A program made the position numbers and the translations under genes. A DNA stretch of 64,000 nt from Halobellus sp. LT62 (GTDB taxonomy: Archaea > Halobacteriota > Halobacteria > Halobacteriales > Haloferacaceae). The notes beneath the pieces are model-generated. The model was not told the DNA's origin and searched no databases. It worked only from the letters and a program-made list of their open reading frames with translations. Position 1 is the stretch's first letter; the number at the start of each line of letters is the position of its first letter. Positions 12,557-31,628 of this stretch are shown here, piece after piece. Where the stretch lies: positions 372,001 to 436,000 of the forward strand of contig NZ_JAYEZO010000001.1 in NCBI RefSeq assembly GCF_037031285.1. The letters run 5' to 3'.

Positions 12557-12629
12557 GGGCTCGTGGTCTAGTGGTTATGACGCTTCCCTTACAAGGAAGA
12601 GATCGGTGGTTCGACTCCGCCCGAGCCCA
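12557..12629 (+). tRNA. tRNA-Val, anticodon TAC
   Basis: A 73-nt cloverleaf: acceptor GGGCTCG pairs with CGAGCCC, discriminator A, and CCA is not encoded. The anticodon stem CTTCC/GGAAG closes the loop CTTACAA, giving anticodon TAC (codon GUA). The T arm contains GGTTCGACTCC. Immediately downstream is a palindromic element ending in a second copy of the last 24 nt of this gene. Confidence 0.95.
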
Positions 12630-12671
12630 TACGAGTGCCCGAGCGACAGCGAGGGCCGAGTATTTTCGCGA

Positions 12672-12731
12672 GGGCGGATCGAATCAGGGAGCAGCTTCGC
12701 TGCGACCGTGGTTCGACTCCGCCCGAGCCCA
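12672..12731 (+). repeat. Palindromic element ending in a second copy of the tRNA-Val 3' end
   Basis: The last 24 nt of tRNA-Val (12606-12629) recur exactly at 12708-12731, 102 nt further on. Before that copy stands its approximate reverse complement (12672-12686, GGGCGGATCGAATCA) and a perfect small hairpin GCAGC-TTC-GCTGC (12691-12703). The whole can fold as one stem: inverted T-arm, inner hairpin, T-arm. A matching element with the same 102-nt pitch follows tRNA-Phe. Confidence 0.85.
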
Positions 12732-30858: not shown

Positions 30859-30932
30859 GCCGCCTTAGCTCAGACTGGGAGAGCACTCGACTGAAGATCG
30901 AGCTGTCCCCGGTTCAAATCCGGGAGGCGGCA
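30859..30932 (+). tRNA. tRNA-Phe, anticodon GAA
   Basis: A 74-nt cloverleaf: acceptor GCCGCCT pairs with AGGCGGC, discriminator A. Anticodon stem CTCGA/TCGAG closes the loop CTGAAGA with anticodon GAA. The T arm has GGTTCAAATCC. CCA is not encoded. A palindrome carrying a second copy of the 3' end follows, as for tRNA-Val. Confidence 0.96.
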
Positions 30933-30971
30933 TTTTCCTGCGAACGACGTGAGCAGTGAACGATACCCGAG

Positions 30972-31035
30972 CGGATTTGAACCAGCGAGCAAATCTGTGA
31001 TTTGCGAGTGAGGTTCACAATCCGGGAGGCGGCAT
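30972..31035 (+). repeat. Palindromic element ending in a second copy of the tRNA-Phe 3' end
   Basis: The last 17 nt around the tRNA-Phe end (30917-30933) recur exactly at 31019-31035; the wider T-arm copy has one inserted base (GGTTCACAATCC). The discriminator-to-discriminator distance is 102 nt, identical to tRNA-Val. Before it stand the reverse complement of the T arm (CGGATTTGAACC, 30972-30983) and a perfect 7-bp hairpin GCAAATC-TGT-GATTTGC (30989-31005). Confidence 0.85.
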
Positions 31036-31628
31036 CAGGTTTCTACACGGACTAAACTCGAGCGACAGCGACGTCATACGGCGGTTTTATCGTCCAAAAT
31101 CGGTGGTGATTTGAACCGACAACAACACGGAAACCGGTCTCGTCTTGCGTTCCACATCCATTGGCAACCTCTACGAATACAATTCTTCACCGTGGGATAT
31201 TACCAACCGCGCGTGATAGTTGAGACTCGCTGTTCAGTCCCTTTTTCAGGTCATCGAACTCCCCACAGTACCGATCTGAGGGGTTCGATAGTTGGCTGAG
31301 GATGTTGGGGTCTATCCACGTGTTCAGTACAGAGGACTTACGTAGCGATCTCCCTGTTGGATTACCCACTTTCTCTCAAGAACGCCGTGCGAGAGATAGC
31401 GGATGACTTTGCCAGTAGGTTTGATGATACTTCTACGTATGATCTCGGCTTGATCCGGAGATCCGCTCGGCCACGGGTAGCCCGGCAACGCCCGCCCGTA
31501 TGGCCGATCTTACCGTGACCCGCTGATTGCTGTTTACCGGCTCAGAAGCTGGTAACGCGGCTTTATCGTGGCTCTGAGGAGATACCACCTATATAACAAA
31601 CCCGTTCACGGGCCCAGTCCCGGTTGCG
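31036..31628. other. Intergenic stretch, mostly empty
   Basis: No complete gene. A protein-like plus-strand piece near 31350-31480 (LLDYPLSLKNAVREIADDFA) may be a decayed gene end, but I cannot name it. CTATATAAC at 31589-31597 is a good TATA box for the PRC-barrel gene that starts at 31629. Confidence 0.4.

Follow-up and report, generated by a model that had tools for sequence, protein, structure and literature searches.

The tRNA-Phe gene in the stretch of Halobellus sp. LT62 DNA analysed here (64,000 nt, hereafter the window) is followed by a unit that folds into two hairpins and ends in a copy of the tRNA's own 3' end, and a second unit of the same family lies behind tRNA-Val. On balance, the sequence comparisons reported below lead us to regard these units as non-autonomous, non-coding hairpin elements of about 100 nt that sit at haloarchaeal tRNA 3' ends and are putatively moved by a recombinase. 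The anatomy of the units, their distribution, the empty sites, the tandem arrays, the sharing of cores between tRNAs and the strand asymmetry are directly supported. The features of the two units are as follows.

30859 to 30932, plus strand: tRNA-Phe(GAA), host gene (ARAGORN; Rfam tRNA, 65.5 bits)
30933 to 31034, plus strand: whole Phe unit, 102 nt, comprising hairpin 1, hairpin 2 and the copy of the tRNA 3' end
30935 to 30960, plus strand: Phe hairpin 1, TTC-CTGC-GA-AC(GAC)GT-GA-GCAG-T-GAA (RNA fold)
30972 to 30983, plus strand: Phe inverted T arm, CGGATTTGAACC (folds; repeat search)
30984 to 31011, plus strand: variable core of Phe hairpin 2, type B
31012 to 31034, plus strand: Phe distal T arm, GGTTCAcAATCCG, plus acceptor copy to the discriminator
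12557 to 12629, plus strand: tRNA-Val(TAC), which hosts the window's other unit
12630 to 12731, plus strand: whole Val unit, 102 nt, core type A
12637 to 12656, plus strand: Val hairpin 1, GCCC-GA-GC(GACA)GC-GA-GGGC (folds)
12672 to 12723, plus strand: Val hairpin 2, with inverted T arm, GGGAGC..GCGACC core and distal T arm (covariance model R1, 63.6 bits, E 1.5e-14)
12708 to 12731, plus strand: distal copy of the tRNA-Val 3' end, 24 nt exact, spacing 102

At tRNA-Phe, the word AATCCGGGAGGCGGCAT from the tRNA tail is found twice (30917-30933 and 31019-31035; spacing 102), and the 3' part of the tRNA itself, from T loop to discriminator, forms the proximal copy of the unit's repeat. The distal copy has one extra T-loop base, C31018, which is bulged when the inverted T arm (30972-30983) pairs with 31012-31024 in the fold. 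The core carries tandem G.A mismatches (30987-30988 / 31006-31007) and a perfect 7-bp inner stem, GCAAATC/GATTTGC (30989-30995 / 30999-31005), and hairpin 1 has tandem G.A mismatches of its own (30942-30943 / 30951-30952). A sequence-only reading of this DNA had described the inverted T arm at 30972-30983, a 7-bp hairpin at 30989-31005 and a 102-nt spacing, and these and the other features it named are all present. The sequence of hairpin 1 is conserved at tRNA-Phe of other genera and families. The core, for its part, is nearly identical to cores in the second unit at tRNA-Ser(TGA) and at tRNA-Arg(GCG), and a genome search with the Phe spacer returned three other matches, all adjoining tRNAs (Ser(TGA), Arg(GCG) and Thr(CGT)). 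Further 3' of the Phe unit (window 31055-31120), a word resembling the G.A module, CGAGCGACAGCGACG, was observed at about 31059-31073 and a word resembling an inverted T arm, GATTTGAACC, at 31108-31117; the two are possibly what is left of a decayed second unit.

Because the first loci had been picked by an exact motif, covariance model R1 was trained on 59 Val-type cores taken from other species and none from the window. When run on the window, R1 recovered the Val unit (63.6 bits, E 1.5e-14) and the Phe unit (31.8 bits, E 4.2e-6) as the only significant places, the next-best place in the 64 kb having an E of 0.04. The two units, whose core types differ (A at Val, B at Phe), are members of one family and their likeness is not due to chance, which bears out the earlier proposal of one shared element type at both tRNAs. 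That proposal had also pointed to the identical 102-nt pitch of the two units, which does not hold up as a diagnostic mark. Over 165 units, the pitch had a median of 104 (10-90% range 93-147) and equalled 102 in only 11, and in this genome the values spanned 92-167 nt, apart from a single copy at 239 (Ala-GGC), lengths at which no gene fits between the tail copies. A fixed 102-nt pitch was rejected as a meaningful constant, the value lying near the family median, and its recurrence at Phe and Val is partly coincidence.

The genome was read around its tRNAs only, using 44 Rfam places with their flanks, of which 43 were recognised by ARAGORN. A downstream copy of the tRNA's own tail was found at 20 of these 43, with scores of 13-30 compared to at most 10 upstream (tandem tRNA-Asp apart); subtracting the tandem tRNA-Asp pair, which accounts for one of these copies, gives 19 of 43 tRNAs with a unit, where an exact 15-nt tail copy within 300 nt would be expected by chance at about 1e-6 per tRNA. 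Truncated units occur at two more tRNAs, Ser(CGA) and Arg(CCT), and truncated and degenerate units are common. The order of parts is constant (i.e., tRNA, hairpin 1, inverted T arm, core hairpin, T arm plus acceptor): hairpin 2 consists of the inverted T arm, a variable core and the T arm, and the unit closes by repeating the tRNA's stretch from the T loop through the discriminator, with the tRNA 3' end directly repeated at both ends of the insert. Family-wide, identity of the tail copy to the tRNA is 0.93 at the discriminator and about 0.4 two bases past it. Since the unit ends in the tRNA's own T-loop-to-discriminator segment, the tRNA is intact with or without it. Three main core types were distinguished: type A, GGGATTTGAATCAGGGAGC..GCGACCGTGGTTCAAATCCC; type B, as at Phe, ..CAGCGAGC..GCGAGTGAGG..; and type C, ..CCCTACCAGTCGC..CACGTCTGGTTTCGG.. 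Two tandem units each are present at Ser(TGA), Glu(TTC) and His. A further unit type, in which the G.A hairpin is reversed (T.C on the sense strand) and precedes a tail copy starting ACTCCC or similar, was observed at tRNA-Gly(TCC) of genomes G009 and G013, at tRNA-Arg(CCG) of G009, and as second copies at Gly(CCC), Arg(TCT) and Arg(GCG) of G000.

Outside this genome, a search of a genome collection for core A's exact split motif matched at least 119 stretches; all records listed for it are haloarchaea or archaeal bins. Haloferax species other than Haloferax volcanii are among the carriers of related units. Eighty of 86 core A motifs lay within 600 nt 3' of a same-strand tRNA (80 loci, 15 isotypes), and several of the other six lay at locus ends or behind tRNA-tail-like sequence. 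R1 detected the family in 133 of the 145 Halobacteria genomes scanned. Across 296 genomes sampled from the phylum, it was positive in 65, all of them Halobacteria (of roughly 73 in the sample), and in none of the roughly 220 non-Halobacteria genomes, i.e., the family is restricted to the class Halobacteria within the phylum sampled. All 30 of the 30 best R1 matches were 3' of a same-strand tRNA, which was mostly about 40 nt upstream. A covariance scan, suggested earlier as the check on a shared element, has thus returned a class-wide family that is almost always beside tRNAs and not random T-arm matches. The covariation score of core A was 0.195, compared to 0.096 when shuffled and at most 0.062 when slid; together with the conserved G.A mismatches, this describes a folded, imperfect hairpin with unpaired bases and a variable tip. 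Few or no R1 matches were observed in the nearly complete genomes of G012 and of genus g37 of family f12, a scarcity that may reflect either lineage-wide loss or a family that was never gained there.

The core A pattern had no matches in viral contigs, no element match was found in plasmid and phage collections, and the three matches of the core C pattern, in surroundings that lack a tRNA or T arm, look like chance. No autonomous, longer version of the element was seen and no enzyme gene was linked to any unit. In Rfam scans of the window, only tRNA passed the cut-off, and no account of these tRNA-tail units was found in the open-access literature (subscription journals lay outside the scope of that search).

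Comparison of filled and empty sites revealed gain or loss of whole units. tRNA-Val is filled in G000, where the unit is followed by CTCGGATTACGCACGG, and empty in G007, where CTCGGATTACGTACGG comes straight after the tRNA; with G002, G003 and G009, four genus relatives are empty at this tRNA. The Phe unit is missing in genus relatives whose flanks match: tRNA-Phe is filled in G009 (unit followed by TCCGGTTTCTACACGG) and empty in G011 (TCCGGTTTCTACACGA straight after the tRNA), and it is also filled in G017, from another genus, and empty in G010 and G015. When all tRNAs of three sister genomes (G000, G009 and G013) were compared, unit presence differed at many, with Gly(GCC) and Leu(TAG) providing further empty-site cases. 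Among 32 filled/empty pairs in these sisters, eight had flank similarity above the 99% control level, although some of the eight are alike through shared hairpin words only and not all are clear empty sites. Tandem units with constant pitch were found at loci L055, L093, L097 and L100.

The two hairpins differ in what they share between tRNAs. Across 61 units of the same three genomes, a hairpin 1 similarity of at least 0.6 was reached by 23% of orthologous-tRNA pairs compared to 0.3% of different-tRNA pairs. Cores, by comparison, were similar in 5-6% of different-tRNA pairs, with maxima of 0.90-0.94 over about 40-50 nt; the likeness of type A cores stems partly from fixed words, while in types B and C it extends to arbitrary inner sequence. 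At one and the same tRNA of sister species, the same hairpin 1 was found combined with different cores. Cores are shared across tRNAs and hairpin 1 is bound to its tRNA; therefore, cores travel and hairpin 1 stays.

Hairpin 1 contains a recurrent module, C-GA-[A/G]C(loop)G[T/C]-GA-G, with tandem G.A mismatches. GA/GA internal loops with these flanking pairs were present in 96 of 164 units, compared to 3.8 in shuffles, and tandem G.A also occurs in core types A and B. The antisense strand would carry T.C at these positions, which identifies the sense strand as the folded one. In agreement with this, the sense strand had the lower fold energy in 105 of 147 units and the antisense strand in 40 (composition-corrected p 5e-5, an optimistic value as the units are related), with two sense-favoured hairpins per unit near both ends. 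The G.A hairpin word GCGNAGCGAG was also tried as haloarchaeal background, a candidate that was rejected (window count 2 versus 2.1 expected). Neither a bulge-helix-bulge splice motif nor a classical kink-turn was found by eye in the folded cores, which show no 3-nt bulges in the arrangement required.

A folded sense strand could be RNA or DNA. As RNA, the unit would be a transcribed pre-tRNA trailer whose hairpins and second tail steer 3' processing or give rise to a small RNA. Every unit seen lies on the tRNA's strand, the sense strand is the better folder of the two, tandem sheared G.A pairs are common in RNA, and a T run after the distal copy at Gly-gcc means that some units are probably transcribed. 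The loops, however, look different. DNA tetraloops of the GNNA form with a pyrimidine in third position follow a known stability rule, and 24 of 30 module tetraloops are of this kind whereas none of the 30 is GNRA. Triloops of the GNA form make up 50 of the 81 module triloops and are described as exceptionally stable minihairpins in DNA (Yoshizawa 1997, cited in PMC6479982). In addition, selection on an RNA helix would be expected to produce a pattern like that of this genome's own tRNAs, in which G-U pairs amount to 8.5% in the sense and 4.1% in the antisense fold; in hairpin 1 the bias is reversed (5.0% sense versus 7.6% antisense), which favours DNA. These comparisons are statistical, draw on related sequences and rely in part on general loop rules, and they lend moderate support to a sense strand that acts as single-stranded DNA and not as RNA. 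A transcribed element also fits poorly with a genome in which half of the tRNAs carry no unit, with orthologous tRNAs of close relatives that gain or lose theirs, with the frequency of truncated and degenerate units, and with Rfam matching nothing beyond tRNA. Overall, we consider an RNA element rather unlikely. The sequence-only reading had named a recombinase, a processing signal and a small parasitic element that rebuilds its target as possible shared mechanisms; the processing signal is weakened by the DNA-like loops, the lack of sense-strand G-U enrichment and the frequent loss of whole units, while a recombinase-dependent or small parasitic, target-rebuilding element fits the clean empty sites, tandem arrays and core sharing.

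For the mobile element that we favour, we infer a single-stranded DNA form, a recombinase and an insertion step. The sense strand would act as single-stranded DNA, in which inverted and distal T arms would pair into a 12-13 bp duplex of essentially T-arm DNA sequence. A recombinase acting at T arms might then accept folded hairpin 2, as integron integrases accept attC. Insertion would spare the tRNA, since the same tail closes the unit; recombination between two tRNA tails would lead to unit loss or tandem arrays, and the near-universal T-arm sequence would let cores pass between tRNAs. More tentatively, the units could represent an undescribed class of mobile DNA, i.e., a gene-less hairpin cassette of about 100 nt, limited to the tails of tRNA genes throughout the class Halobacteria, whose folded strand mimics the T arm, so that a host recombinase may insert and remove it while the tRNA stays unbroken; we regard this stronger claim as possible but doubtful.

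Candidate movers were assessed by surveying gene content in 22 relatives' genomes (10 element-rich and 12 element-free, chosen by element count). Y1_Tnp was absent from G000, G004, G013 and G146 (10-20 R1 matches each), and the element-free sister G012 has 10 copies; an HUH/Y1 mover, absent from the studied and other element-rich genomes and abundant in G012, was therefore rejected. Reverse transcription (group II intron or retron) was likewise rejected, RVT_1 being present in two of the 10 element-rich genomes and absent from the other eight, with none in the studied genome. A Cas1/casposase mover was rejected as Cas1 was found in none of the 10, the studied genome included. Cas1 occurred in six of the 12 element-free genomes compared to these 0 of 10 (Fisher p 0.015, a value that ignores relatedness and the choice of genomes by element count). 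The 17-24 nt tail repeat fits a long target duplication, and a recombination att site would look alike. Phage_integrase (a generic Pfam) was present in 22 of 22 genomes, with a single Pfam match in G146 despite its 20 R1 matches. Since tyrosine recombinases are also found in element-free genomes, their presence proves little and does not single out this candidate; among the movers tested, a tyrosine recombinase nevertheless appears to be the best candidate. It is possible that the mover was lost or transient, as gene tests reflect present content only.

Several known systems share part of this design. In integrons, one strand of attC folds into an imperfect hairpin with unpaired bases and a variable tip, whose arms mimic a double-stranded site, and units are arranged in tandem. 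The tRNA-tail units resemble attC in their imperfect sense-strand hairpin, unpaired bases, variable tip and tandem arrays, but their arms are the tRNA T arm and gene cassettes are not shown for them. REP-like, RUP, ERIC and PATE/MITE repeats are short, non-coding, hairpin-forming and present in many copies, presumably being moved in trans. The units have the same traits (short, non-coding, hairpin-bearing, many copies); unlike REP-like and MITE repeats, they occur only at tRNA tails, carry a 17-24 nt tRNA copy and are found here where Y1 is absent. Some casposons insert at tRNA genes and duplicate a long stretch of the target; Cas1 is absent from the studied genome and nine other element-rich genomes, and no casposon genes occur. 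In the tyrT/rtT repeats of E. coli, units lie 3' of a tRNA and each includes part of its 3' end, with a larger unit at one tRNA locus in one bacterial group. By contrast, the units described here are found at many tRNAs, and Rfam scans of the window gave no rtT match. Tyrosine-integrase elements at tRNA 3' ends (e.g., SNJ2, SSV and Haloquadratum GI3) are similar in that the tail is repeated at both ends, the tRNA is intact and the empty site is clean, and dissimilar in that they span kilobases, compared to gene-less units of about 100 nt with hairpins of fixed design at roughly 20 different tRNAs in one genome. The tRNA-tail copies described in PMC3119063 and PMC8371274 are likewise those of kilobase-sized proviruses and islands.

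In the studied genome, units accompany about half of the tRNA genes, and they are present in nearly all sampled haloarchaea yet absent from Rfam. They bear on tRNA 3' ends as integration hot spots, on whether archaea have folded single-stranded att sites and on the spread of very short gene-less elements. As copies of tRNA ends are used to delimit proviruses and islands in annotation, these units would mislead such searches in haloarchaea.

The units might instead involve no mobile element at all and have arisen by local duplication and fold-back template switching at T-arm palindromes, with spread by gene conversion among copies and, via the universal T-arm sequence, among tRNAs. T-arm sequence borders every core in both directions and supplies 10-13 nt of near-universal homology, old units keep distal copies identical to the tRNA, which suggests conversion, and the inverted arm in G011 tracks mutations of the distal copy. 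We judge this origin unlikely, as it leaves unexplained the class-wide conserved core GAATCAGGGAGC..GCGACCGTGGTTC, the recurrent two-hairpin layout, the G.A modules of hairpin 1 and the absence of the family from other sampled Halobacteriota. Attachment-site scars, left where a provirus or plasmid had entered a tRNA 3' end and its interior was later lost, are very improbable: integrative elements do often insert at tRNA 3' ends, where part of the tRNA stays behind as a copy (PMC3119063, PMC8371274), but the units are uniform in size, have two hairpins with a shared motif, occupy about 20 tRNAs in one genome and form tandem arrays of the same short unit, and no virus, phage or plasmid with the motif was found.

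The long-lived Phe-type hairpin 1 and some whole units could reflect slow turnover or a cellular function. At tRNA-Leu(CAA) of Halorubrum, eight loci (L050, L056, L062, L083, L087, L106, L115 and L125) were observed to carry a unit, in which the core is nearly constant and the distal copy equals the tRNA exactly. This pattern suggests that the Halorubrum tRNA-Leu(CAA) units persist for long periods, with gene conversion or selection.
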